From positions 1 through 64,000 of the forward strand of contig NZ_FOLL01000018.1 in NCBI RefSeq assembly GCF_900112315.1: DNA of 64,000 nucleotides, written 5' to 3'. Positions 17,860 to 54,793 of the stretch are shown here, piece after piece; positions within the stretch are counted from its first letter, which is position 1; each line of letters opens with the position of its first letter. The DNA is from Parapedobacter composti (GTDB lineage Bacteria > Bacteroidota > Bacteroidia > Sphingobacteriales > Sphingobacteriaceae). The position numbers and the translations under genes are program-made. The notes below the pieces were generated by a model that saw nothing but the letters and a program-made list of their open reading frames with translations, did not search any database and was not told the DNA's origin.

Positions 17860-17860
17860 A

Positions 17861-30967: not shown

Positions 30968-31012
30968 TCGGTTTTGCAATGATTAAAATTTGATTATACC
31001 CGGATAATTCAT

Positions 31013-31045
31013 GTAACGGGTGGGGGTGGATAACCGCTAACTTTG
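31013..31045 (+). promoter_or_regulatory. Promoter with GTAACGGGTGGG box, N13, TAACTTTG
   Basis: The -7 box TAACTTTG (31038-31045) is preceded at exactly 13 bp by GTAACGGGTGGG (31013-31024), in place of the usual TTTG at -33. The same arrangement with 10 of 12 identical bases occurs before the serine hydrolase at 35276. A shared activator site, perhaps for the AraC protein encoded just upstream, is inferred. Confidence 0.55.
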
Positions 31046-31083
31046 CGTGGTATCACTACATGCGTGTCTTTTATTCGGATATC

Positions 31084-32244: not shown

Positions 32245-32262
32245 GGCATAGAGTTTTTTATC

Positions 32263-33450: not shown

Positions 33451-33451
33451 G

Positions 33452-35080: not shown

Positions 35081-35101
35081 CTTCCATTCAATTTTGCAGC
35101 T

Positions 35102-35123
35102 TCCGCATAAAAAAGCGGATTTT
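35102..35123 (+). terminator. Weak intrinsic terminator after the first S12/M19 unit
   Basis: TCCGC (35102-35106), an 8-nt loop and GCGGA (35115-35119) followed by TTTT. The short 5-bp stem makes it weak, but it lies 22 bp after the S12b stop and before a new promoter at 35237. Confidence 0.45.
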
Positions 35124-35236
35124 CTCGTGCCGATCTGACGGATTATTTCAGGTCCGGGAGGATTGAATTGCCCTGTTTTTAACGAACGCCGGTGTTTTCG
35201 AATTGATTAATTTTCGTTTATAGGTGATTAACCCGT

Positions 35237-35269
35237 GTAATAGGTGGGAAAACATAGTAGTTAACTTTG
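35237..35269 (+). promoter_or_regulatory. Second promoter with GTAATAGGTGGG box, N13, TAACTTTG
   Basis: GTAATAGGTGGG (35237-35248), a 13-bp spacer and TAACTTTG (35262-35269), the same layout as at 31013-31045. The first ATG lies only 6 bp after the -7 box, so the transcript would be leaderless or nearly so. Confidence 0.55.
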
Positions 35270-35275
35270 TCTATC

Positions 35276-36910
35276 ATGATTATGAAAAGAGAATGGTGTA
35301 GTCTTTTGCTTATTTTCTGCTTTTATAACGGATGTTGGGCGCAATTCTCCCTGAGTCGGGGCGGGGTTGCTCGGCTGGACAGCGTATTGAGAAGGGATAT
35401 GGGTAAGCCGGGAGTTGTGCTGGCAATATCATCGGGCAATGAATTGATTTACGAGAAGGCCATGGGATTGGCCAGTCTGGAATGGAATACACCCATGACT
35501 TCAGACGCTGTGTTCGAAGCAGGCTCGGTATCCAAGCAGTTTACCGCTGCCACGGTACTCAAACTAATAGAACAAAAGCGCCTTTCGCTCGACGATGATG
35601 TGCGGAAATACGTTCCGGAGTTGCCGGACTACGGCGAAGAAATAACCATCCGGCATCTGCTTACGATGACCAGCGGATTGCGGGATTGGAGGAATATCAC
35701 CTATTTAATGGGAAAGGCTACGTTTGCCTGTGCTTATAGCCAGTCAGACGCGCTAGAGATTATCTGCAGGCAGCGGGAATTGAATTTTGCGCCGGGCACC
35801 AAATATTCCTATTCCAACTCCAATTATGATCTCCTAAGCATCATCGTATACCGGATCACCAAGGAGCCGTTCGTGAAGTTTTCAACCCGTGAAGTGCTTG
35901 ACCCGGTGGGCTTCATGCATGCAAAGTGGAGGGACAATGCGCTGGAAGTTGTCACCAAAAAGGTAGATTCCTATCGCTTCAGCGAAGCAGCGAACCGGTA
36001 TTTTACGCAAGATCTGTTGGAGCGGACGCACGGTGCGGCTGGTATGTTGGTGACCGCCGCCGACCTCATCAAGTGGAGCAATCACTGGGCATCCGGAAAA
36101 TTCGGGGAAACCTTGGGAAAATTGCGGGAAACGAGGGGACGACTCATCGATGGGAGTGAAATTGCTTATGCCTACGGAGGGGTGCGGGTGACGAATCTTG
36201 GCCGGCTACGGGAGGTCACGCACAGTGGTTTGGTGGCCGGTTACAGGGCTTGGCTGGCTTACTATCCGGAAGCAGAGGTGTCCGTTGCCTGCCTTACCAA
36301 TGATCGATCGTTCGAGATAGCGAAAGTGCGCAATATCATCGGTGAACTGTTAACCGGAGAAAGGTTGGCGGAGCCAAAATCCCTCGTGGCCATGTCGCCC
36401 TCCCAATTGGCTGATCTACGGGGTATCTATAAAGGGGTCGATCACTTTCAGTGCTTCGAAATCAAGACCGATGGCGCGGTGGCTGTTATAGGTAAAGACA
36501 CATTGGGCGCCATTGCGAAAGACACGTTGGTGTCCGGACATACAACCTATATCCTTAAGCCGGAAGGTACAATCGCGGTACATGCTGCTGATGAAGTGCG
36601 TGAATATAAAAAGGTGAATGCGTACAACCCCACTGAAAAGGATCTGAAAGCGTTGGAAGGGCGCTACGTGAATGACGAACTCTCCTTGGATCTCGAGTTG
36701 AAGGTTAAAGACGGCAAACTTGTTGCGTACCGGAAAGCGCACGACAGCATGACGCTTAACCCCACTTATGAAGACGGCCATGAAGCAGGATTTTATACGC
36801 TTTCAAACGGGTTGCGGGCACTTTTCGCGTTCACCCGAAGTAGGGATGGCCATATGGGACTTACCGTAAGCATTCCGAGAGCAGAACATTTTTCGTTTAC
36901 CAAACATTAA
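35276..36910 (+). CDS. Exported S12-type serine hydrolase with C-terminal beta-domain (S12c)
   Basis: 544 aa from ATG 35276; ATG 35282 is equally possible and would leave a short leader. Signal peptide ends near CWAQ. S12 motifs: SVSK at 84-87, YSNSNYDLL (YxN) and THSGLVAGYR (HSG). The last ~150 residues form a beta-rich DUF3471-like domain. It differs more from the other four serine hydrolases than they do among themselves in pairs, so it is not part of the duplicated unit. It opens the operon that carries the collagen-like lipoprotein and SusC-SusD. Confidence 0.83.
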   Translation: MIMKREWCSLLLIFCFYNGCWAQFSLSRGGVARLDSVLRRDMGKPGVVLAISSGNELIYEKAMGLASLEWNTPMTSDAVFEAGSVSKQFTAATVLKLIEQKRLSLDDDVRKYVPELPDYGEEITIRHLLTMTSGLRDWRNITYLMGKATFACAYSQSDALEIICRQRELNFAPGTKYSYSNSNYDLLSIIVYRITKEPFVKFSTREVLDPVGFMHAKWRDNALEVVTKKVDSYRFSEAANRYFTQDLLERTHGAAGMLVTAADLIKWSNHWASGKFGETLGKLRETRGRLIDGSEIAYAYGGVRVTNLGRLREVTHSGLVAGYRAWLAYYPEAEVSVACLTNDRSFEIAKVRNIIGELLTGERLAEPKSLVAMSPSQLADLRGIYKGVDHFQCFEIKTDGAVAVIGKDTLGAIAKDTLVSGHTTYILKPEGTIAVHAADEVREYKKVNAYNPTEKDLKALEGRYVNDELSLDLELKVKDGKLVAYRKAHDSMTLNPTYEDGHEAGFYTLSNGLRALFAFTRSRDGHMGLTVSIPRAEHFSFTKH

Positions 36911-36921
36911 TCAAAATCAAT

Positions 36922-37476
36922 ATGAAAAAGACCGTTACCTTAATCTTGAATGCAGCGCTGTGCTGCCTGACGATGTTCCACTTGTCTTCATGTGAAAAAG
37001 AGGGGCCTATGGGGCCGGCAGGACCTATCGGTGAAACAGGCCCGCAGGGCGAACAGGGGCCACAGGGAGAGAAAGGAGACACCGGTGGGTTTAGTCCCAA
37101 AGTTTACAACTACGAGAACTTTACGGTTCCCGAAGGAGCCTCGGCTTCAAATTACGTGCAGTTGGAAGACCTGTCAAAAGAGGGCTTTGAAAGCAGTGTA
37201 ATACTGATTTACGCTGCGCGTGGTATCAATTGGATACACCTGCCGGGACCGAGTGTGGGAACGCCGAGGAGAACCTATCGCGTATTCTACACCTTTCCTG
37301 AAAATGAAACGCAGACAAGGCTGTACATTGCAAGGGTAGACGGCGGGACGGCAGCCGAAACCTTTGAAAAATTGAGGATTGTGGTCGTACCAGTGCAAGA
37401 AATCGGGGGGCTTCAGGCCAGCGGCATAAATCTGAAGGATTACACAACAGTAAGCCATGTGCTGAATTTGAATTGA
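36922..37476 (+). CDS. Lipoprotein with collagen-like Gly-X-Y repeat
   Basis: 184 aa. Lipobox LSSC, lipid Cys at residue 24. Directly after the anchor, residues 28-54 are nine uninterrupted Gly-X-Y triplets (GPM GPA GPI GET GPQ GEQ GPQ GEK GDT). A ~125-residue globular domain with no family I recognise follows. Gly-X-Y repeats can form a trimeric triple-helical stalk, so the protein may be a trimeric surface lipoprotein presenting its C-terminal domain. It sits 11 bp after S12c and 23 bp before SusC, so it is part of the uptake operon and may be a surface binding component (inference). Confidence 0.8.
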   Translation: MKKTVTLILNAALCCLTMFHLSSCEKEGPMGPAGPIGETGPQGEQGPQGEKGDTGGFSPKVYNYENFTVPEGASASNYVQLEDLSKEGFESSVILIYAARGINWIHLPGPSVGTPRRTYRVFYTFPENETQTRLYIARVDGGTAAETFEKLRIVVVPVQEIGGLQASGINLKDYTTVSHVLNLN

Positions 37477-37499
37477 ACTTAGAGAACAGTATCAGATTA

Positions 37500-40400
37500 A
37501 TGAGACATACGCCAACCAAAATGATTAAAGATAATATAAATAAGGTGTTAATTTCGGCCATCCTGCTGCTTTCGATTGGCGTCCATGTTGCAAATGGAAC
37601 AATTTCAGCGGTACAGCAGTTTACTGCACGTGGGCGGGTCGTTGATGCAAAGGACGGCTCACCGCTGTCGGGGGTGTCGATTGCCGTTAAAGGGGGAAGC
37701 CGTACGACGGTTAGCGACCGACAGGGCAACTTTGCTATTGAAGTACCTACGAACAGATCAGTACTGGTGTTTACCTTTGTTGGTTATGCGCTTCAAGAAT
37801 ACACGTTGGCCGGGGAACTAGCGAATCTCACCGTGTATATGGAACCCATGGTTACGGCGATAGACGAGGTGGAAATTTCCGTGCCTTATGGTACGGAAAC
37901 CAAAGCATCAATTACGGGTTCTGCCGTCGTTATCAAGGGTGAACAACTGGCTGATCGGCCGCGGAGCACTTTTCAAACTTCTTTACAGGGTAATGTACCT
38001 GGACTCCAGGTAATGGAATCTACCGGGCAACCCGGAGCGGCCCCCACGGTTAGGCTGAGGGGGCTTACCTCGTTTTCCGGAACGGTTACGCCGCTTTATG
38101 TCATAGATGGAGTGCCTATGCTCACCCAGGGGGTTGCGGGACTGGCTTTCTCATCCAATAGCGGTGCAGGCATCAATCCAAATGATATTGAGGATATTAC
38201 TGTGCTGAAAGACGGCTCGGCATCTTCCATCTACGGCTCCCAAGGGGCGAACGGCGTTATCCTCATAACTACCAAAAGTGGAAAGGCCGGGAAGACCCGC
38301 ATTAATATGTCTGCAAATTATGGCCAGAACCGCATGGCTTTTGGCGACCGCGCCAAACCCCTGAACACCGCGGAAATGACGCAGTTACTGATTGAGGGGG
38401 TTATCAATAGTAACATTAACCCGACCTTGGAAGCCATTACGACCCCCGAAGCGGCTTACCTGTACTTGGTTCAGAATGGTCTTAACCCGGATGTTGATAC
38501 GGACTGGACGGACGTCATCACCCAAATCGGGCAATATTCGCAGTACAATGTTTCTGCATCGGGCGGCAATGACAAAACCAACTTCTTTGTTTCGGGCGGA
38601 TACTATAAGCAGGATGCCGTAACCAAGGGGCAGGGCTACGACCGGAAGACAGGCCGGTTGAATATCAACCACAAGGCCAATGACAAATTATCGTTTAACG
38701 GTCGAATCGCATTAACAGCCCAGCATTTGAATACCGTGCCGGGGGCCGGTACCGGCCAGAACCCGGTGAGAAGCCTGTATCGGTTTGTACCCTGGCTGTC
38801 TCCCCTGGATGAAAATGGCGAGTATAATTCTCAAATCACCTATAATCCATTGGTTGTGCAGAACGAGAATAGATACGAAACCCATATTTATCAAGCTATC
38901 GGCAATGTGGGGGCTGCTTATCAGTTTACGGATTATTTGACGTATGAAGGGAAGGCTGGTATTGATTTCCATTATTCCGATGATTACCGGTATTGGAGTC
39001 CAATCTGGCCGGATGGCCGGGGGGTAAACGGACGTGGCATGGAATATAATAGGTTGTGGAATAACTGGACGGTAAATAATATCCTACGATACAAGGATGA
39101 CTTCGGCGACTTCGGTATCACAGCGACTTTGGGTCAGGAGGCTGCAAAACGCAACTTGAAGAGTGTCAGTACGCAAGCTCAGAACTTCGTGGCTGAAGAT
39201 CTGTATACCCTGGCAAATACATCAGAGCCTTACATTGCCTGGAGCTCCCGGTCGCATGCGACGTTGGCTTCTTATTTCCTGAATACCAGTTTTAACTATC
39301 AGCAGAAGTACTATTTGAATGTTACCGGACGCCGTGATGGCTCGTCACGTTTCGGTAAACAGGTGAGATGGGCCAACTTCTGGTCGCTTGGCGCGTCATG
39401 GAATGTACACCGGGAAAGCTTTATGGAGAACTTAGATTTCGTCAACCAGCTGAAATTCCGGATCAGTTACGGTACCAGTGGTAACATGTTGGGCGAATAT
39501 TACGGAGCTTTGGGTTTTTACTCAACCAACCAGAACTATATGGGCCAACCGGGCTTTGCCATCGGACAGATAGAGAGCGGGTTGCTTCAATGGGAGCTGA
39601 ACAGGCCCCTGGATATTGGGCTGGAGTTTTCCGTGTTGAATAACCGGTTGAGCGGAACCTTCGATTGGTATACCCGGCAAACATCGCGGCTGATTCAGGA
39701 TATGCCGGTGTCGCATACCAATGGCGTAACGCAATTGAACTTCAATGTGGGAGGTATGAAAAACTACGGTGTGGAAATCAGCTTGAGTTCACATAACGTC
39801 GTCGGCGAAAACGGGAGCTTTGATTGGCGTACGGATTTCAACATCACTACGCTCAACAATAAAATAACGGCTATCCAGGATGGCCGGCGTTATGAAGGCC
39901 GTTATGTGCGCGAAGTTGGGGGAGATTATTACCAATTCCGGATGCGGGGTTATGCAGGGGTCGAACGTACTACGGGACAGGCCTTGTGGTTTACGGACAG
40001 TACACGGACGGCCACAACCACAGAATTCAATCAGGCAGGCATCTTCAAGCAGGAAGGAAAGAGTGCTTTGGCTGATTTTTATGGGGGTTTTACCAATACG
40101 TTTTCCTACAGGGGTTTTTCACTTTCTGCCTTGATTTACTTCAACTGGGGCAATTTCGTTTATGACCCTTGGGGGCCATACACGCACTCAGACGGTTCGG
40201 CGATGCTGGGCGAAGCAGCGCTGATGAGCCGGATGGTGTATCGCCACCGCTGGCGGCAGCCGGGTGATGATGCCGAGTATCCCAAGATTGTATACGGAGG
40301 AAACCAATCGGGCCAAAACGACTATCATTCCACCCGGTTTCTTTACGATGGTAGTTACATTCGATTGCGTGATGTAACGCTATCCTATTCGCTCCCCGTA

Positions 40401-40580
40401 CAGCGCCTGCGCCTGCCTTTTGCCAGCGCCAGTATTTATTTCCGGGCAAACAACCTCTACACCTGGGTCAAGGATGATTTGCTGCCCTACGACCCTGAGG
40501 TAGGCTACGGTGGCCAGTATGACCAGAACTTGCCCATCGCCAAACAGTATGCCTTGGGTATCGATATTTCGTTTAGGTAA
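37500..40580 (+). CDS. SusC/RagA-family receptor of the D-peptide locus
   Basis: 1026 aa from ATG 37500; ATG 37521 gives a tighter signal peptide (KVLISAILLLSIG). CarboxypepD-reg-like domain (ARGRVVDAKDGSPLSGVSIAVKG), then DEVEISVPYGTETK in place of the usual VVVGYG, plug motifs LYVIDGVPM and VLKDGSASSIYGSQGANGVI, and a barrel ending ALGIDISF. Its SusD follows 15 bp later. No glycosidase is encoded in this locus; the flanking enzymes are peptidase-like, so the imported ligand is more likely a peptide or peptidoglycan fragment than a plain glycan (inference; RagAB shows that SusCD-type pairs can import peptides). Confidence 0.93.
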   Translation: MRHTPTKMIKDNINKVLISAILLLSIGVHVANGTISAVQQFTARGRVVDAKDGSPLSGVSIAVKGGSRTTVSDRQGNFAIEVPTNRSVLVFTFVGYALQEYTLAGELANLTVYMEPMVTAIDEVEISVPYGTETKASITGSAVVIKGEQLADRPRSTFQTSLQGNVPGLQVMESTGQPGAAPTVRLRGLTSFSGTVTPLYVIDGVPMLTQGVAGLAFSSNSGAGINPNDIEDITVLKDGSASSIYGSQGANGVILITTKSGKAGKTRINMSANYGQNRMAFGDRAKPLNTAEMTQLLIEGVINSNINPTLEAITTPEAAYLYLVQNGLNPDVDTDWTDVITQIGQYSQYNVSASGGNDKTNFFVSGGYYKQDAVTKGQGYDRKTGRLNINHKANDKLSFNGRIALTAQHLNTVPGAGTGQNPVRSLYRFVPWLSPLDENGEYNSQITYNPLVVQNENRYETHIYQAIGNVGAAYQFTDYLTYEGKAGIDFHYSDDYRYWSPIWPDGRGVNGRGMEYNRLWNNWTVNNILRYKDDFGDFGITATLGQEAAKRNLKSVSTQAQNFVAEDLYTLANTSEPYIAWSSRSHATLASYFLNTSFNYQQKYYLNVTGRRDGSSRFGKQVRWANFWSLGASWNVHRESFMENLDFVNQLKFRISYGTSGNMLGEYYGALGFYSTNQNYMGQPGFAIGQIESGLLQWELNRPLDIGLEFSVLNNRLSGTFDWYTRQTSRLIQDMPVSHTNGVTQLNFNVGGMKNYGVEISLSSHNVVGENGSFDWRTDFNITTLNNKITAIQDGRRYEGRYVREVGGDYYQFRMRGYAGVERTTGQALWFTDSTRTATTTEFNQAGIFKQEGKSALADFYGGFTNTFSYRGFSLSALIYFNWGNFVYDPWGPYTHSDGSAMLGEAALMSRMVYRHRWRQPGDDAEYPKIVYGGNQSGQNDYHSTRFLYDGSYIRLRDVTLSYSLPVQRLRLPFASASIYFRANNLYTWVKDDLLPYDPEVGYGGQYDQNLPIAKQYALGIDISFR

Positions 40581-40595
40581 TTTATTTAATTTGAA

Positions 40596-42047
40596 ATGGA
40601 AACAAAGATTCAGTATATGGTAAAGCTCCGTAGGTTGGCCGGCATGTTCCTCATGGTTTCGGCACTATGTTCGGGGTGCAGCGAGGGCTTCCTGGATGAA
40701 ACCAACCCCCAGTCCGTCGGTTTCGATCACATCAAGGATTTGAAGTCACTCACAGCGGCAACCACCGGGGTGTACAACAGCTTTAACAACAGTAACTATT
40801 ATGGGCGTACATTTGTCGTTTCGCCTGAATTGTTCGGCGACAACTCGTTCATCAGTATACGCAATGGCGGGAGATACCTCGGGCATGACCGGTTTACCGT
40901 CACCAATGGTGATGGTTATGTTACAGGGGCTTGGACGCAGATGAACCGTGTGGTTGCCAATGCAAATCTGGCCATTCAGGCAGGAAACCAACTGACTTTC
41001 CCGGAGGGACAGCGGGCAGCGGCCAACCAAATCATGGGCGAATTATATGCCTGCCGGGCACTGGCGTGGTTTGATATGGTCCGTTATTTCGCCCAGCCGT
41101 ACAATTACACCGAAGATGCTTCGCATCTGGGAATACCGTTGGTCACTGAACCGCCGGGGGTAATCATCTCACCATCGAGGGGCACAGTGGCAGAGGCTTA
41201 CACGCATATCGTGGCTGATTTATTGCGCGCCGAGGAGCTTTTGGGCAGCGCGAAGAAAAATGGCTATTTCAATAAAGCTGGCGCGCAGGCATTGCTGGCC
41301 AAGGTTTACCTGTACATGGAAGATTGGGAAAATGCCGAGATTTATGCGACGAAGGTGATTGAAGAAAGTGCAGGCTATACGTTGCTGTCCAATGCAGATT
41401 ATGTGGCCAGTTGGGGGCAAAAATTCAGTGTTGAGTCTATCCTCGAAATCGGTATGCTGCCAACGGACAACAACGGCGCCAACAGTATAGGTTACCTGTC
41501 TGAACAAGGCGGATACGGAGAATGGTTGGCAACGAAGGAACTTTACGATACTTATTCGCAAACGGATATCCGTCGTAACCTCATCGTGCCAGGCTCACGG
41601 GAAAATGCCGAATCCGAAGCATACTTTATTAAAAAATACCCGTTGGGGGCTTCATCACGTGACGATAACATAAAAGTGCTTCGCCTATCGGAGGTATACC
41701 TCATCCGCGCGGAAGCCAGGGCAGAGCTAAGCAAAACGCAGCCAGATAAAGCGGCAGGTGCCTTAAGTGATCTGAATGCGATCGTAGGCCGTGCCGACCC
41801 TGAAGCAAGCGTGTCGGGCTTGCAGGGGGACGCGTTGGTTGAACGGATTATTTTGGAACGCCGGAAGGAACTGGCTTTTGAAGGCAACCGGTTATTTGAC
41901 ATAAACCGTAAAAAGATGTCTTTAGTGCATATACAGACGAATCAAATCCGGACATTCGAATATCCTAACAACCGGTTTATCATGCCGATTCCGTATGCGG
42001 AACGGAATGCTAATCCGAATATTCAGCCAAATCCTGGCTGGAATTAA
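40596..42047 (+). CDS. SusD/RagB-family outer-membrane lipoprotein of the D-peptide locus
   Basis: 483 aa, shorter than the two SusD proteins of the glycan locus (596-606). Lipobox LCSGC; the lipid Cys is near residue 28. RagB/SusD signatures: ELYACRALAWFDMVRYFAQPY, LRLSEVYLIRAEARAEL and ERRKELAFEGNRLFDINR. The compact size resembles the RagB branch, whose known member binds peptides. It should form the lid of the preceding SusC. Confidence 0.94.
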   Translation: METKIQYMVKLRRLAGMFLMVSALCSGCSEGFLDETNPQSVGFDHIKDLKSLTAATTGVYNSFNNSNYYGRTFVVSPELFGDNSFISIRNGGRYLGHDRFTVTNGDGYVTGAWTQMNRVVANANLAIQAGNQLTFPEGQRAAANQIMGELYACRALAWFDMVRYFAQPYNYTEDASHLGIPLVTEPPGVIISPSRGTVAEAYTHIVADLLRAEELLGSAKKNGYFNKAGAQALLAKVYLYMEDWENAEIYATKVIEESAGYTLLSNADYVASWGQKFSVESILEIGMLPTDNNGANSIGYLSEQGGYGEWLATKELYDTYSQTDIRRNLIVPGSRENAESEAYFIKKYPLGASSRDDNIKVLRLSEVYLIRAEARAELSKTQPDKAAGALSDLNAIVGRADPEASVSGLQGDALVERIILERRKELAFEGNRLFDINRKKMSLVHIQTNQIRTFEYPNNRFIMPIPYAERNANPNIQPNPGWN

Positions 42048-42105
42048 TCGGTGGAATGTTTAGGAATTAGAATGGATGGAACGTAAACTTATAAATTATT
42101 CTATT

Positions 42106-43311
42106 ATGAATAGCGTTATGAAGAGGCATTTCGGCCATTTTTTTCACGCCGGTATTTGGATGCTCGCGTTGGCATTGGTGTTCACCTCCTGTAGCAAGCA
42201 GGATCTACAGCCGGATTTGCCTGACCTCCCGGAACCGGGTAGTAACCATGAATTTAGCCTTGCGCTGGTTGACGATCCCATCGTCGATTTCATGGCCCGC
42301 TACAACGTGCCTGGGGCGTCCGTCGCCATCAGTAGGAACGGGAAGCTGGTGTACGCAAAGGGTTACGGGTGGGCCGACCGGGAATCGGCTACGCCCGTGG
42401 ATACTTCAAGCCTATTCAGAATCGCCAGCCTGTCCAAGTTTGTCACATCCGTAGGTATCATGACATTGATTGATAAAGGGCAACTGAATATGAACGACAA
42501 GGTGTTCGGCCCGGGCTCCATTCTGGGCGACGAATATGGCGGCGCCCCTTATCCTCAATATATCACCGATATCACGTTACGGAATGTTCTTCAGCATGAG
42601 ATAGGCGGGTGGAACAACTCCAGCGGCGATCCCGCTTTCCAGCAGCCCGGTTTGAATGCCCGGGAGCTCATCGCATGGACAATAAGAAACCGACCGCTAA
42701 CCGCAGCCCCGGGCACGAAACTGGACTACTCGAATTTAGGGTATATCCTCCTAGGGCGTATCATCGAAAAGGTGAGCGGCAAGCCGTATGTAGAATACAT
42801 CCGGCAGGAAATATTTGACAAAGTGGGGATTAAAAATATGCAGATTGCCGGCGGAACGCTGGCAGAACGGAAACCCAATGAAGTAAAGTACTATGGCCAG
42901 CATGGGCAGAACCCGTATGGATACGCCGCCGGAGTTGTTCCCCGGCTCGAGGCCTGTGGAGGGTGGATAGCGTCGGCAATCGATTACCTGCGGATGGTTG
43001 TGCATGTCGATGGGCTACCGTCCCCGTCCGATATATTGAGCCCGGCAACCATCGAAGTCATGTCAACACCTTCACCTAATTCTGTCTACGCCTGCGGTAT
43101 ACGCATCAGTGCGGTCAACAAGAACTGGTGGCATGGCGGAGGACTTGCCGGAACCCGCACCTGGATGGTGAAGGCGTCCAATGGTTTCGCCTGGACGATT
43201 TTTTTCAACACCCGCAATACATCAGACGGATTTGATAATGCAGTGAATGAATTGGTCTGGCCTGCAGTGAACAACGCATCCACCAACTGGCCTGATATAG
43301 ACATGTTTTGA
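42106..43311 (+). CDS. S12-type serine hydrolase lipoprotein (S12a paralogue)
   Basis: 401 aa from ATG 42106; other in-frame ATGs lie at 42076 and 42118. Lipobox FTSC, lipid Cys at 29 from this start. Active site: SLSK at 108-111, YSNLGY and WWHGGG (HGG in place of HSG). Sequence blocks VPGASVAISR, LVYAKGYGWAD, SILGDEYGGAPYPQYI and GGWNNSSGDPAF correspond one to one with the exported enzyme at 31084, marking them as duplicates. Here the copy has gained a lipid anchor. Follows SusD by 58 bp. Confidence 0.86.
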   Translation: MNSVMKRHFGHFFHAGIWMLALALVFTSCSKQDLQPDLPDLPEPGSNHEFSLALVDDPIVDFMARYNVPGASVAISRNGKLVYAKGYGWADRESATPVDTSSLFRIASLSKFVTSVGIMTLIDKGQLNMNDKVFGPGSILGDEYGGAPYPQYITDITLRNVLQHEIGGWNNSSGDPAFQQPGLNARELIAWTIRNRPLTAAPGTKLDYSNLGYILLGRIIEKVSGKPYVEYIRQEIFDKVGIKNMQIAGGTLAERKPNEVKYYGQHGQNPYGYAAGVVPRLEACGGWIASAIDYLRMVVHVDGLPSPSDILSPATIEVMSTPSPNSVYACGIRISAVNKNWWHGGGLAGTRTWMVKASNGFAWTIFFNTRNTSDGFDNAVNELVWPAVNNASTNWPDIDMF

Positions 43312-43378
43312 TTTGAGGCAGCAAGGGTGTAGGTTTTACATTCGTCGGCACGCCGCCGTTCCGGAGCACAAAACAGGT

Positions 43379-44320
43379 ATGATCGTAATCGCCGAACAGC
43401 AAATAAGGGAAATACTTAATCATCGGTCGCTTATCGATGCATTGGCAACAGGGTTCAGGGAACGGTATGAACAGCCCGATCGCCATCATCATTTTTATCG
43501 GCCAGCTGGAAGTTCCGAAAACACACTGCTCTTGATGCCGGCATGGAACGATACTTATATAGGGGTTAAGCAAGTGGTTTCTGCTCCCGGAAATGGGGCA
43601 AAAGGTATACCCACCATCCATGGTTTATACAGCTTAATGGATGCGCGCACAGGTCAGCTGATGGCGGTGATGGATGCCGGCCGTTTGACGGCCATACGTA
43701 CAGCGTGTGCTTCAGCATTGGCAGCCCGTTACCTGGCCCCGGCACACCCAACAACCCTGCTTGTGATAGGAGGGGGTAAAGTGGCCAGCGAGTTGATACC
43801 CGCGCATCTGGCCGTGAGGGATTATCAAAAGGTGCTGGTGTGGACACGCCGTAAGGAGGCTTTTGACACGTTTAAACGCGGGCTGTTACCATTGTCCGTG
43901 CCCGTAATCTGGGAGCGGCACTTGGAGGAAGCCGTCAGAAAGGCGGATGTTATTTCATGTGCTACGCTTTCCGAAGTGCCGCTGGTTAAAGGAGCGTGGC
44001 TTCGGGCCGGTCAACACCTGGATTTGATAGGCTCATTCAAGATGGGGATGCGCGAGGCGGACAACCTTGCTGTCAGCAAAAGCAGCATCTTTGTTGACTC
44101 AAGGTACGGGGCGTTGAACGAGTCCGGCGAACTGGGAATCCCGGCCCGTGAAGGTGTGATCGGCCAACGGGATATTTTAGCGGATATAAAGGAATTGTGC
44201 AGGGAAGAACACGATGGGCGGACAACTCCGGAAGAAATCACCCTGTTTAAGTCTGTCGGCTTAGCTATCGAAGATTTGGTGGCTGCGTCATTGGTATACA
44301 AATCGGTATCGTCTCGCTAA
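43379..44320 (+). CDS. Ornithine cyclodeaminase / mu-crystallin family enzyme
   Basis: 313 aa from ATG 43379; the longer frame needs a TTG start and adds an unlikely tail. No signal peptide, so cytosolic. Family motifs: GVKQVVSAPGNGAKGIPTIHG, SLMDARTGQLMAVMDAGRLTAIRTACASALAARYLA, the Rossmann glycine motif LLVIGGGKVASEL and DLIGSFKMGMREAD. Members include ornithine cyclodeaminase, delta1-pyrroline-2-carboxylate/piperideine-2-carboxylate reductases and alanine or lysine dehydrogenase-like enzymes, all acting on amino or imino acids. Between a serine hydrolase and a dipeptidase fusion, it probably handles an amino acid released from the imported peptide; the substrate is open. Confidence 0.87.
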   Translation: MIVIAEQQIREILNHRSLIDALATGFRERYEQPDRHHHFYRPAGSSENTLLLMPAWNDTYIGVKQVVSAPGNGAKGIPTIHGLYSLMDARTGQLMAVMDAGRLTAIRTACASALAARYLAPAHPTTLLVIGGGKVASELIPAHLAVRDYQKVLVWTRRKEAFDTFKRGLLPLSVPVIWERHLEEAVRKADVISCATLSEVPLVKGAWLRAGQHLDLIGSFKMGMREADNLAVSKSSIFVDSRYGALNESGELGIPAREGVIGQRDILADIKELCREEHDGRTTPEEITLFKSVGLAIEDLVAASLVYKSVSSR

Positions 44321-44371: not shown

Positions 44372-44390
44372 GATATTGAAAACCTTTCGA

Positions 44391-46271
44391 ATGAAGATGA
44401 AATTTTATGTAAAGATTTGTATTCCGGCATTTTTTGTGTTGTCCTGCGCCCAGCAGCCCAACAACGCGGACTATCTGAAAGTGCACCAGAAAGCACTGTT
44501 GGCCGATATTCACAACGATGCGATATATACTACGTCCGTTTCGCGGGGTATTGACATTTCCGCGCGCAACGAGGTTGGTGATACCGACTTGGATCGGCTC
44601 AAAGACGGCGGCGTCGGGCTGCAGGTGTTTGTACTTTTCTGCGACGGGGAATACGGTCCGGGCACCGCGTTTAGTTTCGCCAACCGAATGGCCGATTCAC
44701 TGGACAGCGTAGTGGCCCGCAATCCGGACAAGGTAGCGTATGCTCATCGTGCTGACGATGTGGAGCGCATCACGTCCTCGGGAAAAATAGCGGCATTAAT
44801 GGCTGTCGAAGGAGGACATATGATTGAAGATCGGCTGGACTACCTTGATAGCCTTTACAGGCGGGGCATGAAATACCTTACCCTTACCTGGAACAACAGC
44901 ACCACATGGGCCACGTCTGCTGCCGATGAAACTGACCCGGAACGTGAATTGTCGCACAAAGGCCTTACGCGATTCGGTGAAGAGGTGGTAAAACGGCTAA
45001 ATGAACTGGGGGTGATGATAGACCTTTCCCATGCCGGCGAGCAGACGTTTTATGATGTGTTGCGGGTTTCGTCTAAACCCGTGATGGCTACACACAGCAA
45101 CTGTTATGCTTTGGCTCCTCATCCCCGGAACCTGAAAGATGAACAGATAAAGGCGATAAAGGAAAACGGTGGACTGATAGGTGTTAATTTTTATTCGGGC
45201 TTCATTGATCCCGATTATAATCGCCGCAAGGATAGTCTGCTGGCCTACCACCAGTCGGTATACGACAGCCTCTTGGCTAAGCATGAGGGCAATGCCATGC
45301 ACGCCGCACGTGAGCTCATCAGCGGCTTGCCTAAGGCACAGCAAGATGGCATACGTCCCCCATTGTCGATGATGATTGACCATATCGATCATATCGTGGA
45401 ATTGATTGGAGTGGACCACGTAGCAATAGGCAGCGATTTTGACGGTGCGGAATCGTTTGTCGGAGAAATGGACGATGTGTCGTCATTTCCGAAACTCACC
45501 AAGGCCCTGCTTGAACGGGGATATAGCGAGGCGGATGTCCTGAAGATCTTGGGGGGCAATTTTATGCGAGTATTCCGTGCAAATCAGTCTGCCTCGCTCG
45601 CTTTGCCGGCATCTATCCAATCATCAGCGAGGGAAGCCAACTACGAAAAATACGGCGCGAACACGGTCTCATCCGTCACAGATTACCTGGTCCAGGTGGA
45701 GCAAAATCCCGAGCAGGCATTGGTTGACCTCCGGACGTACCTTCCCGGTGCGCAATTTGAGGTGGTTTATGCCACAAATAACAACTTCATGCGCCGGCCG
45801 GTGTATACCCAGGAGGCGGCATATCTACGGTTGCCAGCGGCAAAAGCCCTGCAGGCCGTTCAAGCTGAATTGAAACAAAAGGGCTATGGACTGAAGATTT
45901 GGGATGCCTACCGGCCTTATGGCGTCACCGTGGCGTTCTACGAAGAAGTGCTGGACTCCACGTTCGTGGCTTCCCCCTACACGGGATCAAGGCACAATAG
46001 GGGGTGCGCTGTGGATCTCACGCTCGTGGATTTGTCCACGGGTAAAGAGCTGCCTATGCCTACGGGATTTGACGACTTTGTTCCAGAAGCTCATGTGGAC
46101 TATGCGGGGTTGCCGGAGGCGGTCATTGCCAACCGGGAATTGCTAAAGGGAACAATGACGAAACACGGGTTCGATACCTACCCCGATGAGTGGTGGCACT
46201 ATGATTTCAACGGATGGGAAAAATTTCCCTTAATGGATTTAACATTTGAGGAACTGGAAGAAACACGGTGA
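44391..46271 (+). CDS. Fusion lipoprotein: M19 membrane dipeptidase + M15D (VanX-like) D-Ala-D-Ala dipeptidase
   Basis: 626 aa from ATG 44391. Lipobox VLSC, lipid Cys near residue 19. Residues ~30-405 are a complete M19 dipeptidase: LADIHNDAIYT (HxD), AVEGGHMIED, LTWNNSTTWATS, IDLSHAGEQTFYD, ATHSNCYAL, IGSDFDGAES. Residues ~420-626 are an M15D domain: IWDAYRPYGV, SRHNRGCAVDLTL (zinc His 535 and Asp 542, with S533) and DEWWHYDF (catalytic Glu 600, zinc His 603). VanX/DdpX enzymes cut D-Ala-D-Ala. Two dipeptidases in one anchored chain could hydrolyse both mixed and all-D dipeptides. The two parts join without a stop or frame break. The permease start overlaps its stop by 3 bp. Confidence 0.92.
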   Translation: MKMKFYVKICIPAFFVLSCAQQPNNADYLKVHQKALLADIHNDAIYTTSVSRGIDISARNEVGDTDLDRLKDGGVGLQVFVLFCDGEYGPGTAFSFANRMADSLDSVVARNPDKVAYAHRADDVERITSSGKIAALMAVEGGHMIEDRLDYLDSLYRRGMKYLTLTWNNSTTWATSAADETDPERELSHKGLTRFGEEVVKRLNELGVMIDLSHAGEQTFYDVLRVSSKPVMATHSNCYALAPHPRNLKDEQIKAIKENGGLIGVNFYSGFIDPDYNRRKDSLLAYHQSVYDSLLAKHEGNAMHAARELISGLPKAQQDGIRPPLSMMIDHIDHIVELIGVDHVAIGSDFDGAESFVGEMDDVSSFPKLTKALLERGYSEADVLKILGGNFMRVFRANQSASLALPASIQSSAREANYEKYGANTVSSVTDYLVQVEQNPEQALVDLRTYLPGAQFEVVYATNNNFMRRPVYTQEAAYLRLPAAKALQAVQAELKQKGYGLKIWDAYRPYGVTVAFYEEVLDSTFVASPYTGSRHNRGCAVDLTLVDLSTGKELPMPTGFDDFVPEAHVDYAGLPEAVIANRELLKGTMTKHGFDTYPDEWWHYDFNGWEKFPLMDLTFEELEETR

Positions 46272-47761
46272 ACGGCTCAGCGAAAACCACTATTGAAGGG
46301 CAGCAAAGCTTAAAACGAACGCTGGGCCTTTTTGATTCTACGATGTTGGTTGCGGGGTCGATGATTGGCTCGGGCATTTTCATCGTCTCTGCCGAGGTGA
46401 TGCGCGATGTCGGTGGGGCAGGGTACATGATGCTTTTATGGGGTATGGCAGGTGTCATCACGTTGATTGCCGCGCTCAGCTATGGCGAATTGGCCGCCAT
46501 GATGCCAAAGGCGGGGGGGCAATACATCTACCTGAGGGAATCGTACAACCGGATGACGGGCTTTTTATATGGGTGGACGATATTTTTTGTGGTCCAAACC
46601 GGAGTGGCCGCTGCGGTAGCTATCGCCTTTGCTCGGTTTACCGGCGTTTTGGTGCCTTGGGTGAGTCCGTCAAACGTATTGTTCTCGGTTGGTTTTAACA
46701 TTACTTCGCAGGATCTATTGGCTGTATCGGTCGTTGTTTTTCTCACATGGGTCAATCTACAAGGCGTGAAAAGCGGCAAACTGGTACAGGGTGTTTTTAC
46801 CGTAGCCAAAATATGGGCATTGCTGGCTATCATCGTGGTGGGCGTATGGGCCGGTTACGGAAGCGGTTATTGGCCGTTGAACATGGAGCACGCATGGGAT
46901 GCATTCCGGACGACTACCCGTGCCGGTCATACCGAAGGGGTTTTTATGGAACCGCTTAAGGGATGGCAGTTATTGGGTGTGTTAGGATGTGCGTTGGTAG
47001 GCCCGTTATTCGCCAGCGAAGCTTGGAACAACATTACCTATACAGCGGGGGAAGTCATCAATCCCCGTAAGAATATTCCATTGAGCCTTTTTTTGGGCAC
47101 GCTGACGGTCACCGTGCTTTATCTGTTGGTCAATGTGGCTTACCTGATGCTACTGCCTGCCCAAGGCAATCCAGACGCCCCCGATGTCATTGGCCGGGGT
47201 ATCATGTTTGCTGCGGACGACCGGGTCGGTACGGCAGCCTTCGCCACCGTGTTTGGTGATGCAGCGGTCGCCGTCATAGCCGTGCTAATCATGGTTTCCA
47301 CGTTTGGTGCCTGCAACGCATTGATTCTGGCCGGAGCACGGCTGTATTATGCAATGGCCAAAGATGGGCTGTTTCTGTCAAGGGCGGGACAGATCAACGA
47401 CCGGGGCGTACCCGGTTTTGCGCTGGTTGCCCAGTGCGTCTGGACATGTCTGCTGTGTCTTACCGGTACTTACAGTGCTTTGATCGCTTACGCCATTTTC
47501 GCGCAGCTCATTTTCTATATACTTACGGTAGGGGGGGTATTGCTGTTGCGGCGGAAAAAGCCACATGAATATCGGCCTTATAAAGCGTTCGGTTACCCCG
47601 TACTGCCCGTTGTGTACATGCTGCTGGCGGCTGGAATATGTGTTTCCCTGCTGATATACAGGCCAGCAACGAGTTGGCCAGGGGTGGTCATCGTACTGTT
47701 GGGAGCGCCCGTGTACGTTTGGATCAATCGTAAAAATGTAAACCTACAAAAGCCAAAATAA
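46268..47761 (+). CDS. APC-superfamily amino acid permease
   Basis: 497 aa with about 12 hydrophobic helices. The GTG start at 46268 overlaps the dipeptidase TGA (GTGA), indicating translational coupling. GSMIGSGIFIVSAEVMRDVG and YGELAAMMPKAGGQYIYLRE are the helix 1 and helix 2-3 signatures of the APC/LAT-type amino acid transporters. It would carry amino acids freed by the periplasmic dipeptidases across the inner membrane. Substrate specificity, including use of D-amino acids, cannot be read from the sequence. Confidence 0.9.
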   Translation: MNGSAKTTIEGQQSLKRTLGLFDSTMLVAGSMIGSGIFIVSAEVMRDVGGAGYMMLLWGMAGVITLIAALSYGELAAMMPKAGGQYIYLRESYNRMTGFLYGWTIFFVVQTGVAAAVAIAFARFTGVLVPWVSPSNVLFSVGFNITSQDLLAVSVVVFLTWVNLQGVKSGKLVQGVFTVAKIWALLAIIVVGVWAGYGSGYWPLNMEHAWDAFRTTTRAGHTEGVFMEPLKGWQLLGVLGCALVGPLFASEAWNNITYTAGEVINPRKNIPLSLFLGTLTVTVLYLLVNVAYLMLLPAQGNPDAPDVIGRGIMFAADDRVGTAAFATVFGDAAVAVIAVLIMVSTFGACNALILAGARLYYAMAKDGLFLSRAGQINDRGVPGFALVAQCVWTCLLCLTGTYSALIAYAIFAQLIFYILTVGGVLLLRRKKPHEYRPYKAFGYPVLPVVYMLLAAGICVSLLIYRPATSWPGVVIVLLGAPVYVWINRKNVNLQKPK

Positions 47762-49347
47762 TGAAATTTGTACAGCGTAAATTATGGATAGCCATTGTTG
47801 CAGTCGTCGTCCTTTGGGAGGAGAGTACGGCGCAGTCACCCGATGTGTTGCCACGGGGCTTTGATCAGTATGTACAGCGGGTGCTGGAAACCTTTGAGGT
47901 GCCGGGCATGGCCCTGGCCGTGGTTAAAGACGGCGAGGTGGCCTTGGCAAAAGGGTATGGCGTACGCAGGATGGACGATCCCGCAGGGGTTGATGAACAT
48001 ACACTTTTTCCCATCGCTTCCAACTCAAAGGCATTTACCGGCGCAGCACTGGCTATGCTGGTAGAAGAAGGTAAGCTGGAATGGGATAAACCGGTGGTCG
48101 AATACCTCCCTTGGTTTAAGCTTTCGGATCCCTTGGTAACCAATGAGCTAAGTGTGTGCGATCTATTGGTGCACCGCAGCGGCATTGCTCCATATGCGGG
48201 CGACCTGCTCCAGTTCCCGCCAACCACCTATACACGCCGGGAATTGGTAGAACGCCTTCGCTACCTGCCTTTGGCCACCAGCTTTCGAAGTGCGTATGCT
48301 TATGACAATGTGCTTTATCTGGTGGCAGGTTTGCTTATCGAGGAAGTGTCTGGAATGATGTGGGAAGAATTTATTCGACAACGGATTTTCGAAAAAGTAG
48401 GGATGGAGACGAGCATATCTCGGTTTTCCAAATTTAAAGGGGTTCAAAATGGCGCGGCCTCCCATGCTCGTGTTGGTGGCAAACTGCGGGTGTTAGAGAA
48501 TTTTTTCGAACAAGGACTGGGAGACATTTCCAATCCGGCTGGAGGCATTGTTTCCAATGCGGCCGACATGGCCAAGTGGCTGCTCACACAGCTGGATTCC
48601 GGCAGAACACCGAAAGGCGAACACCTTTTATCATCGGCGTCGGTCGAGAATCTGTGGCGGGGGATAACCCCCATGCCTATACCTAAAGTGCCGGAATGGA
48701 TAGCGCCTGCCCAGTCAGATTTTAACGCCTATGCGCTGGGCTTCAGGGTGCATACTTATCGTCATGTAAAGGCCGTGACACACGGCGGTAAATTGGATGG
48801 TTTCGTGTCTTGTGTCATGTTCTTCCCCGACCTTGATTTAGGTATTTGTGTATTGACTAATCAGGAAAGCACCAACGCCTATATGGCAGTGATTAACGCT
48901 GTTGTAGACCACGTAATGGGTGCGGAACCGTTTGATTGGATTACCGGTTACCGAAGGCAAGAAGATCGCCGTTTTCAATACATAGCCAATCAAGAACGCG
49001 CGGCTGTGAACCAACGTGCCACCGGATCGGGACCTTCACTGCCCATCGCAGCCTATGCAGGCAGCTACCGTGATGCTTGGTATGGCGATATAAGTATTAT
49101 GGAGGAAGATGGTCAGCTCGTGATGCGTTTTGAGCATACCCCCTTATTGGTCGGCGAAATGGAGCATTGGCAGTATGACACTTTCGTTGTGCGGTGGCAA
49201 AACAGAGATCTTCGGGCCGACGCGTATGTGACATTTTCGCTCGACCATGACGGAAGCATTCACCGCGTACGAATGAAAGCGGTATCGCCGGTCACTGACG
49301 TGAGCTACGATTTTCATGATCTCGATATTTATCCCGTAAAGGATTAG
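47761..49347 (+). CDS. Exported S12-type serine hydrolase with DUF3471-like domain (S12b paralogue)
   Basis: 528 aa; the ATG shares its A with the permease TAA (TAATG). Signal peptide ends near ESTAQ. SNSK at 87-90, YAYDNVLY and THGGKLDG (HGG) form the active site. The C-terminal domain YAGSYRDAWYGDISI ... HWQYDTFVVRWQNRDLRADAYVTF matches S12b at 33452 block for block. Last gene of the locus: the convergent ABC transporter gene ends only 11 bp away, with no hairpin between. Confidence 0.86.
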   Translation: MKFVQRKLWIAIVAVVVLWEESTAQSPDVLPRGFDQYVQRVLETFEVPGMALAVVKDGEVALAKGYGVRRMDDPAGVDEHTLFPIASNSKAFTGAALAMLVEEGKLEWDKPVVEYLPWFKLSDPLVTNELSVCDLLVHRSGIAPYAGDLLQFPPTTYTRRELVERLRYLPLATSFRSAYAYDNVLYLVAGLLIEEVSGMMWEEFIRQRIFEKVGMETSISRFSKFKGVQNGAASHARVGGKLRVLENFFEQGLGDISNPAGGIVSNAADMAKWLLTQLDSGRTPKGEHLLSSASVENLWRGITPMPIPKVPEWIAPAQSDFNAYALGFRVHTYRHVKAVTHGGKLDGFVSCVMFFPDLDLGICVLTNQESTNAYMAVINAVVDHVMGAEPFDWITGYRRQEDRRFQYIANQERAAVNQRATGSGPSLPIAAYAGSYRDAWYGDISIMEEDGQLVMRFEHTPLLVGEMEHWQYDTFVVRWQNRDLRADAYVTFSLDHDGSIHRVRMKAVSPVTDVSYDFHDLDIYPVKD

Positions 49348-51784: not shown

Positions 51785-52273
51785 TCACAAGTCGTTGTCA
51801 TTCAATATTTCCATGATGATTTCGCTTTCGAAACCCCTGCCCAGCGCATATTGCATCAGCTTGTGTTTGCGTTTATAAGGGTGGTTCTCGCGCTCACCGC
51901 GGGCTTTTGTTTGCAAAAGATCATGGAGTTTTGCCCGGTATTCCCGTTCGTCCAGACTGGCCAGGGCGATGCGGATGAGCGGGGGCGACACGGATTTCTG
52001 CTGCAATCCTTGCTTGATTTTGTGGCGGCCCCACCCTTTCATCCTGAATTTGCCCGAAGTGTAGGCCAGGGCAAAACGTTCCTCGTTAAGGAAGTCTTCG
52101 GCAATCAGGTCGGCTATGATGGCTTCCACGTCGGTTTTGTGCAGTCCCAGGCTGTACAGCTTGTCGCGTACTTCCTGCTGTGATCGTTCTTGGTATGCAC
52201 AATACGCTTCGGCTTTGGATTTGGCCTGTTGCGGCGTCATCGCCCGGGGTTTGTGTTCACGGAAATGGTCCAT
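51785..52273 (-). CDS. recX: RecX-family regulatory protein
   Basis: 162 aa from ATG 52273; the longer frame needs a TTG start. It shows the three-helix repeats of RecX: AKSKAEAYCAYQERSQQEVRDKL, the L..EDFLNEERFALAY motif, KFRMKGWGRHKIKQGL, and a third repeat near the C-terminus. RecX binds RecA filaments and limits recombinase activity. It is not next to recA here; it diverges from murF-alr across 57 bp. Confidence 0.9.
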   Translation of the reverse strand: MDHFREHKPRAMTPQQAKSKAEAYCAYQERSQQEVRDKLYSLGLHKTDVEAIIADLIAEDFLNEERFALAYTSGKFRMKGWGRHKIKQGLQQKSVSPPLIRIALASLDEREYRAKLHDLLQTKARGERENHPYKRKHKLMQYALGRGFESEIIMEILNDNDL

Positions 52274-52330
52274 ACGGGCCAAAATGGGAAAAAATTGGTG
52301 CAGTCACTAAAAAATGTTGAAATTCGTGCC

Positions 52331-54793
52331 ATGGCTATACCGGAGCAGTTTTATACCGTTCAGCACATCGCTGATGTGCTCAGCCCTGTACGGGTCTTCC
52401 TGCCGTCGCCGGCGGCAGCGGTAAGTTCGCTCCTGTACGACAGCCGCAAGCTGTCGGACGCCGGCAACGGGCTGTTCTTTGCCCTCAAGGGGCGGCGCAA
52501 TGGGCATGCTTATATCGGCGATGCCTATGCGGCGGGTGTCCGTAATTTTGTGGTGGCCGAAGGGGAAGAGGCCGCTGCCGCGCTTCCTCATGCCAACGTT
52601 ATTGTGGTGCGGGATACGCTGGACGCGTTGCAGACCCTGGCGGCATACCATCGCAGCCGGTTTTCATATCCGGTTATCGGCATTACGGGCAGCAATGGCA
52701 AAACCATCGTAAAGGAGTGGTTGAGGCAACTGCTGTCGCCGGAATTCCGCATTGTCCGCAGTCCTAAAAGTTATAATTCGCAAATTGGGGTGGCGCTGTC
52801 GCTATGGCAGTTAGACGGCACGCATAACCTGGCCATCATCGAGGCGGGGATAAGCCAGCCCGGCGAGATGCAATCGTTGCAGCGCATGATCCGGCCTGAT
52901 ATTGCGGTGCTGACGAACATTGGCCCGGCGCATGACGAGGGGTTTGCTTCCCGGAACGATAAGGTTGCCGAGAAGCTCCGGCTGTTTGAGGGAGCCGGTA
53001 CCGTGGTATATTCGCCGGGTTACCTGCATGGCATGGCCGTGCCGCCCGCCACAACCCGCGTTACTTGGGGACATGGGGACGCCGCGTTGCAGGTGCTCCG
53101 CCATGAGCGGATAGGCGACCGCCGCTGCCGGATATACGGGCGCTACCGCGGGAACGAGATGGATATCACCATTCCTTTCACGGATGAGGCCTCACGGGAG
53201 AATGCCACCTGTTGCTGGGCCGTGATGCTGGCGATGGGGTATGCTCCGGCGGTTGTGGCCGAACGGATGGCCGGACTCCAGCCCGTGGAGATGCGGCTGG
53301 AGATGAAACGGGGTATCAATAGCTGCACGTTGGTGGATGATAGCTACAGCAACGACCTGGCTTCTCTTGCCATCGCGCTGGATTTTCTCCGGCAGCAGCA
53401 TCAGCATCCTTCCCGTACGCTGGTATTGTCGGATATCCCCGGTACGTGGGGTCGTGAAGATGAAGTTTACGAAAAGGTACTTAAGTTATTGGTTAATAAT
53501 AATATTAACCGATTGATTACTGTAGGGGAGGGACTGGCCGCGCAGGCGTCGCGATTCCGGGGATTGCGGCATGAGGCGTTCGCCAACACGGAAGCGCTGC
53601 TTGAGGCGCTGCCGGGCATGGATTTCCATGACGAGATAGTACTGCTAAAGGGCGCGAGGGTGTTTGCGTTTGAACGCATTAGCCAATTGCTGGCAGCGAA
53701 ACTGCATGACACCGTGCTGGAGATTAATCTGAACGCGCTGGAACATAACCTGGGCCGGTTTAAATCGCTGTTGCCGGCACAGGTCAAGTTGATGGCCATG
53801 GTTAAGGCGTTTTCCTATGGCAGCGGCAGTTTCGAGGTGGCTAATCTTCTTCAGTTCAATAAAGTGGATTGCCTGGCCGTGGCTTATGTGGATGAAGGCG
53901 TTGAGCTGCGCAAGGCGGGTATTTACCTGCCCATTATGGTAATGAACCCAAGCCCTGCTGCGATAGGGCTGTTGCTCAGGTATGAACTGGAGCCTGAAGT
54001 ATATAGCTTTTCGGTGTTGGCTGATTTGGTGCGGGAATTGTCCAATAGGGGCATGACCGGATATCCCGTCCACGTTAAGATAGATACAGGGATGCATCGG
54101 TTGGGGTTCGGCGTGAACGATATCGATAAGTTAGCGAGTGATTTATCTAAAACAAATGCAGTAAAAGTTAAATCTGTGTTTTCTCATCTGGCGGCTGCGG
54201 GCGAAGCGGAACACGACGCATTTACCGAAACGCAATTGGCGGCATTCCACGGCGCGGTAAGCCGGTTGAGTGCGGCGCTGGGCTATCCGTTTATCCGTCA
54301 TATTGCCAATACCGCGGCTATCCAGCGGTGGCCCGGGGCACATCTGGATATGGTTCGTTTAGGCATCGGTTTATACGGGATTCATAATGCGGCTAAGCGT
54401 TCCTTGCACCTGCAACAGGTATGTACATTAAAAACCGCGATTGCGCAGCTCCGGATAGTGCCGGCCGGCGAAAGTGTGGGGTATGGCCGCAAGGGTGTGC
54501 TGGCGAGGGAGAGCAGTATAGCGACGGTAAATATCGGGTATGCCGATGGTTATGACCGGCGGTTCGGGAACGGGGTGGGCAGCATGGTCGTTAATGGTAG
54601 AACCGTGCCTACGGTGGGGGATATCTGTATGGACATGGCGATGCTGGATGTCACGGGGGTGGAAGCACGGGAAGGCGATGAAGTAATTGTTTTCGGAGAT
54701 TTGGCAGGGCAGGCGGCTGCTATAGGTACTATTCCGTATGAACTGCTGGCAGGTATCTCACAGCGGGTCAAACGGGTATATTTTTATGGTTAA
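52331..54793 (+). CDS. Bifunctional MurF ligase / alanine racemase
   Basis: 820 aa from ATG 52331; a longer frame runs antisense to recX. Residues ~1-455 are MurF (UDP-MurNAc-tripeptide:D-Ala-D-Ala ligase): substrate domain, P-loop GITGSNGKT at 117-125, NIGPAHDEGF and DDSYSNDL. Residues ~460-820 are alanine racemase: VLEINLNALEHNL, the PLP lysine K492 in AMVKAFSYGSG, KIDTGMHRLGF and the catalytic Tyr region NIGYADGYDRRFG. The chain joins synthesis of D-Ala and its addition to the murein precursor. This fusion is known in Bacteroidetes. Its start region is divergent from recX. Confidence 0.95.
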   Translation: MAIPEQFYTVQHIADVLSPVRVFLPSPAAAVSSLLYDSRKLSDAGNGLFFALKGRRNGHAYIGDAYAAGVRNFVVAEGEEAAAALPHANVIVVRDTLDALQTLAAYHRSRFSYPVIGITGSNGKTIVKEWLRQLLSPEFRIVRSPKSYNSQIGVALSLWQLDGTHNLAIIEAGISQPGEMQSLQRMIRPDIAVLTNIGPAHDEGFASRNDKVAEKLRLFEGAGTVVYSPGYLHGMAVPPATTRVTWGHGDAALQVLRHERIGDRRCRIYGRYRGNEMDITIPFTDEASRENATCCWAVMLAMGYAPAVVAERMAGLQPVEMRLEMKRGINSCTLVDDSYSNDLASLAIALDFLRQQHQHPSRTLVLSDIPGTWGREDEVYEKVLKLLVNNNINRLITVGEGLAAQASRFRGLRHEAFANTEALLEALPGMDFHDEIVLLKGARVFAFERISQLLAAKLHDTVLEINLNALEHNLGRFKSLLPAQVKLMAMVKAFSYGSGSFEVANLLQFNKVDCLAVAYVDEGVELRKAGIYLPIMVMNPSPAAIGLLLRYELEPEVYSFSVLADLVRELSNRGMTGYPVHVKIDTGMHRLGFGVNDIDKLASDLSKTNAVKVKSVFSHLAAAGEAEHDAFTETQLAAFHGAVSRLSAALGYPFIRHIANTAAIQRWPGAHLDMVRLGIGLYGIHNAAKRSLHLQQVCTLKTAIAQLRIVPAGESVGYGRKGVLARESSIATVNIGYADGYDRRFGNGVGSMVVNGRTVPTVGDICMDMAMLDVTGVEAREGDEVIVFGDLAGQAAAIGTIPYELLAGISQRVKRVYFYG

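Follow-up and report, generated by a model that had tools for sequence, protein, structure and literature searches.

The window analysed here is a stretch of 64,000 nucleotides from Parapedobacter composti (contig NZ_FOLL01000018.1, positions 1 to 64,000), and at 44391-46271 on its forward strand lies a single gene encoding 626 amino acids from an ATG, without an internal stop. An alternative TTG start lies upstream at 44376 and would give 631 amino acids. The encoded protein reads, in order, as a lipoprotein signal, a whole M19 dipeptidase and a whole M15D dipeptidase of the VanX/DdpX type:

44391-46271, forward strand: M19-M15D fusion gene
44391-44444, forward strand: predicted lipoprotein signal peptide MKMKFYVKICIPAFFVLS, from sequence reading and a PROSITE-type lipobox pattern
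44445-44447, forward strand: lipobox Cys19, directly after the signal peptide
44481-45578, forward strand: M19 dipeptidase domain, residues 31-396, from Pfam PF01244, PDB alignment, invariant columns and a structural model
45579-45650, forward strand: linker, residues ~397-420, delimited by comparison with stand-alone proteins, an M15D of P. soli and an M19 of a congener (G007)
45714-46208, forward strand: M15D (VanX/DdpX-type) domain, residues 442-606, from Pfam PF01427 and a match to VanX (1r44, E 1.5e-19)

Pfam places Peptidase_M19 at residues 31-396 (E 5.8e-106) and Peptidase_M15 at residues 442-606 (E 7.3e-27), both far above cut-off. Both halves align to solved enzymes and their models match the same folds, and the domains are therefore not chance assignments. 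An earlier note had read this gene as M19 and M15D in one lipoprotein, which is borne out by the Pfam domains, by the presence of all metal ligands in both halves and by the lipobox pattern; the motifs it quoted were all found (HxD, the bridging Glu and the His of ATHSN in one half, SRHNRGCAVD and DEWWH in the other).

The M19 half scores 354.7 bits against PF01244, covering profile positions 2-318 of 319, and aligns over its whole length to solved M19 enzymes (Sco3058/3id7 at residues 39-401). Its ligands H41 and D43 (H41xD43), E140 (VEGGH), H214 and H235 (ATHSN) are invariant in homologues, and R246 and D349 are also kept in the alignment to Sco3058 and DPEP1. An initial full-length model resolved the C-terminal half of this domain badly, probably owing to a mixed, shallow alignment; modelling M19 separately cured this, giving a pLDDT of 93 and a pTM of 0.90 with 3itc/3id7 as the best Foldseek matches. 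The fusion has in common with stand-alone Bacteroidota M19 proteins, and with their structural relatives Sco3058 and human DPEP1, the fold, the metal ligands and the active-site Arg and Asp; it differs in its added C-terminal M15D and, together with its own subfamily, in one substitution. His152 of DPEP1 is an active-site residue, and its position is occupied here by Trp167 (TLTW against TLTH in DPEP1 and Sco3058; M19 part of the open reading frame, 44391-45602). Because 99 of 106 Bacteroidota homologues carry Trp at this position, with His in the seven others, which are more distant, Trp167 reads as a subfamily trait within M19, and neither as decay nor as grounds for exclusion from the family. 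The chemistry or preference of this Trp-bearing subfamily may differ from that of DPEP1, and the substrate range of the M19 half is not to be copied from the human enzyme.

The M15D half scores 94.9 bits against PF01427 and matches VanX (1r44) by both sequence and fold. R508, H535 and D542 (SRHNRGCAVD) and E600 and H603 (DEWWH) are invariant in 39 aligned sequences, supplying the zinc and catalytic His, Asp, Glu and His and the substrate Arg. In the full-length model the pLDDT of this half is mostly above 90, and VanX is the nearest solved fold by Foldseek. The domain falls below both NCBIfam equivalog cut-offs, at 155 against 176 bits for DdpX and 90 against 320 bits for VanX, so its substrate range is not to be inferred from VanX. 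That a single chain could deal with most peptidoglycan-stem dipeptides, as the earlier note proposed, is a conjecture. A reading in which one half alone is a working dipeptidase, the other being a substrate-binding or structural remnant, could point to Trp167 at the DPEP1 His152 position and to the need for both halves to fold while tethered; with every ligand retained in both halves, and Trp167 common to the subfamily, we regard it as improbable.

The halves meet where a stand-alone M19 ends and a mature stand-alone M15D begins. The usual M19 end (NFMRVFRA...) runs in frame into YEKYGANTVSSV..., a stretch matching the beginning of the mature M15D lipoprotein of P. soli (YQEKYGAPTVSTV...), and the linker, which coincides with low pLDDT at residues 388-411 of the full-length model, leads into YEKYG.... 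Translating across the junction in all three frames revealed no signal peptide ahead of the M15D domain. The earlier note had named a sequencing error fusing two reading frames as the case that would undo its claim. That the architecture is a singleton, and that the junction is known from the assembled sequence, would suit an error of assembly or sequencing joining two adjacent genes. The stand-alone relatives, however, do have a signal peptide that is missing here in every frame, the linker is in frame, third-position GC is alike on both sides of the junction and the flanking genes stand in conserved order. Given the absent junction signal peptide and the synteny we reject an error, a very remote prospect, as the origin of the fusion. 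The joining of two known dipeptidase families is genuine and, so far, a singleton.

The N-terminus MKMKFYVKICIPAFFVLSC fits a lipobox with Cys19, and the lipobox KICIPAFFVLSC at residues 8-19 is assigned by pattern match. In other Bacteroidota, known acidic signals for surface export comprise K-(D/E)2, Q-A-(D/E)2 and SDDDD (PMC5080379). The residues following Cys19, AQQPNN, contain none of these, although the signals may not be those used by Sphingobacteriaceae; their absence makes a periplasm-facing position of the lipoprotein the likelier one. The earlier note had also presented export as a departure from cytosolic VanX and DdpX. This novelty we reject, as signal peptides are the rule among M15D relatives: nearly all stand-alone members in Bacteroidota have one at the N-terminus, and the nearest, the P. 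soli M15D (67% identical), bears a lipobox too. The novelty lies in the joining: taken singly, both halves are unremarkable members of known enzyme families, and these are usually exported in Bacteroidota.

The fusion gene sits within a larger gene cluster:

27590-~28699, reverse strand: dipeptide epimerase, with 3q45 as the nearest solved structure by sequence
28710-29753, reverse strand: Ddl-like ligase, divergent and paired with the epimerase
30071-30967, forward strand: AraC regulator
31060-32244, forward strand: S12 hydrolase
32263-33450, forward strand: stand-alone M19 lipoprotein
33452-35080, forward strand: S12 hydrolase with DUF3471
35267-36910, forward strand: S12 hydrolase
37473-40580, forward strand: SusC, conserved in the congeners G007 and G004
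40596-42047, forward strand: SusD, conserved in the same two congeners
42076-43311, forward strand: S12 serine hydrolase S12a (SLSK and YSN motifs)
43313-44320, forward strand: ornithine-cyclodeaminase (OCD)-family reductase, above the cut-off of the Pyr2C/Pip2C reductase model NF004793
46268-47761, forward strand: APC-type amino-acid permease, its start codon overlapping the fusion gene's stop (GTGA)
47761-49347, forward strand: S12 serine hydrolase with DUF3471, S12b (SNSK and YDN motifs)

Several S12 hydrolases of the cluster carry SxxK and YxN motifs. Three Parapedobacter genomes, the one under study, G007 and G004, conserve the cluster, comprising the divergent epimerase and Ddl-like ligase, AraC, S12 hydrolases, SusC, SusD, S12a, M19 and S12b. 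The epimerase and ligase pair is kept beside the cluster in both congeners, and the block from AraC to S12 (30071-36910) is conserved in G007 and partly in G004. The Ddl-like ligase is a second copy in its genome, the other Ddl (G000:C44:117057) having counterparts in all congeners, and the cluster beside which it lies looks catabolic. KY in the Ddl loop is typical of D-Ala-D-Ala ligases, and since the loop of the cluster copy retains KY, a VanA-like switch was rejected.

The slot taken by the fusion holds, in G007 and G004, a stand-alone M19 without a signal peptide (L147:15983-17122 and L196:16555-17673), both on long branches. The fused M19 groups with these syntenic proteins (SH-aLRT 98) and has the shortest branch of the clade (0.29 against 0.88 and 1.67), pointing to constraint that is still in force. 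The P. soli M15D lipoprotein is the sister of the M15D half (SH-aLRT 99); its gene belongs to a different locus and operon, where its neighbours are an S12 hydrolase, RidA, a GntP permease and an enzyme of the D-serine-dehydratase type. The two proteins share all catalytic residues and lipoprotein export; the copy in the window, however, lacks a signal peptide of its own, is C-terminal to M19 and lies at another locus. The APC permease and the OCD-family reductase are missing from the M19 slot of both congeners. Arrival of reductase, peptidase and permease as one transferred module found no support: three congeners have an OCD-DUF885-APC set elsewhere, with ~47-57% identity for the OCD and APC proteins.

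To what extent the architecture recurs was judged in family, class and phylum samples of ~400 genomes each, which overlap and are all Bacteroidota. The M19-M15D architecture occurred only in this genome. A query with the full protein gave no other match across both halves, either in a sample of relatives or in the three wider ones, with strict E-values in the class and family repeats. The M15D half as query had a relative in 249 of 401 family genomes, yet among the ~155 family M15D matches listed only the window has an open frame longer than ~290 codons. A GTDB contig scan supplied the 80 closest M19 loci, and the flanking DNA fetched for them contained no M15D. No second M15D was found in the genome of the window, and seven of eight Parapedobacter congeners gave no M15D match. 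Literature searches likewise turned up no account of an M19-M15D fusion. An independent fusion of M15D with an S33-like hydrolase was seen in another genome, G561 (L187:5103-6761, reverse strand). As in the window's protein, M15D is the C-terminal half there; the partner differs, and the event is a separate one.

Being known from one genome, the fusion could be a neutral accident, in which stop-codon loss and deletion joined two ordinary exported dipeptidases with no gain over separate proteins. The single occurrence in the samples searched and the tolerance of M15D for fusion, illustrated by the sporadic S33-like joining, fit such an accident. Both domains are intact, however, and the M19 half has diverged more slowly than its unfused orthologues, and we hold a neutral origin to be unlikely. 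It differs from the explanation we favour mainly in selective benefit.

Taken together, the sequence comparisons make it probable that the protein is a lipid-anchored envelope enzyme with two independent zinc dipeptidase domains, created by the in-frame joining of M19 and M15D. One partner would have been the M19 gene belonging to a peptide-utilization cluster conserved in Parapedobacter, the other an M15D lipoprotein of the same genus, reduced to its mature part: its own signal peptide would have been lost when it became the C-terminal half. The M19 half would most likely act on dipeptides ending in a D-residue (L-X-D-Y), and the likely targets of the M15D half would be dipeptides resembling D-Ala-D-Ala. 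Their substrates may be peptides imported via the adjacent SusCD and trimmed by the S12 hydrolases, and the APC permease next door could carry in the amino acids released. The likeliest role of the fusion appears to be the splitting of D-residue dipeptides within the envelope, and the context agrees, with SusCD for oligomer uptake, S12 hydrolases, an epimerase near 3q45 and a permease overlapping the stop of the fusion gene. More tentatively, and we find this possible though doubtful, the fusion may mark a relocation of D-residue dipeptide hydrolysis, such that the cell imports free D- and L-amino acids and not intact dipeptides. This suggestion draws on the M19 of the related clusters, which looks cytosolic, while here an exported fusion is accompanied by a permease and a reductase that are absent from the relatives' slot, and on a dedicated gene set whose members include a second Ddl-like ligase as well as a dipeptide epimerase.

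VanX and DdpX act in the cytosol and have a single domain; PcgL, likewise of one domain, is periplasmic. The M15D half shares its fold and catalytic residues with VanX (1r44) and DdpX; unlike them it is exported, and it scores below their equivalog cut-offs. A precedent for a D-Ala-D-Ala dipeptidase outside the cytosol is PcgL, which, unlike the protein described here, is not fused to M19; the Salmonella protein has been named a D-Ala-D-Ala dipeptidase (PMC7933661, PMC3335776). The fusion joins two stereochemically complementary dipeptidases, and unfused relatives of both halves occur in the same genus, making this a tractable case in which to ask whether tethering helps to remove D-residue dipeptides from the envelope. 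A further point of interest is the conserved Parapedobacter cluster, in which several S12 hydrolases are accompanied by a spare Ddl-like ligase and a dipeptide epimerase. Beyond the tethering question and this cluster, the fusion is a domain-architecture curiosity.

Elsewhere in the window, two long open reading frames without a Pfam match (17750-19654 and 19661-20986) lie between two alpha-L-rhamnosidase genes, and the gene at 52190-54793 reads as a putative MurF-alanine racemase fusion of the kind common in Bacteroidota.
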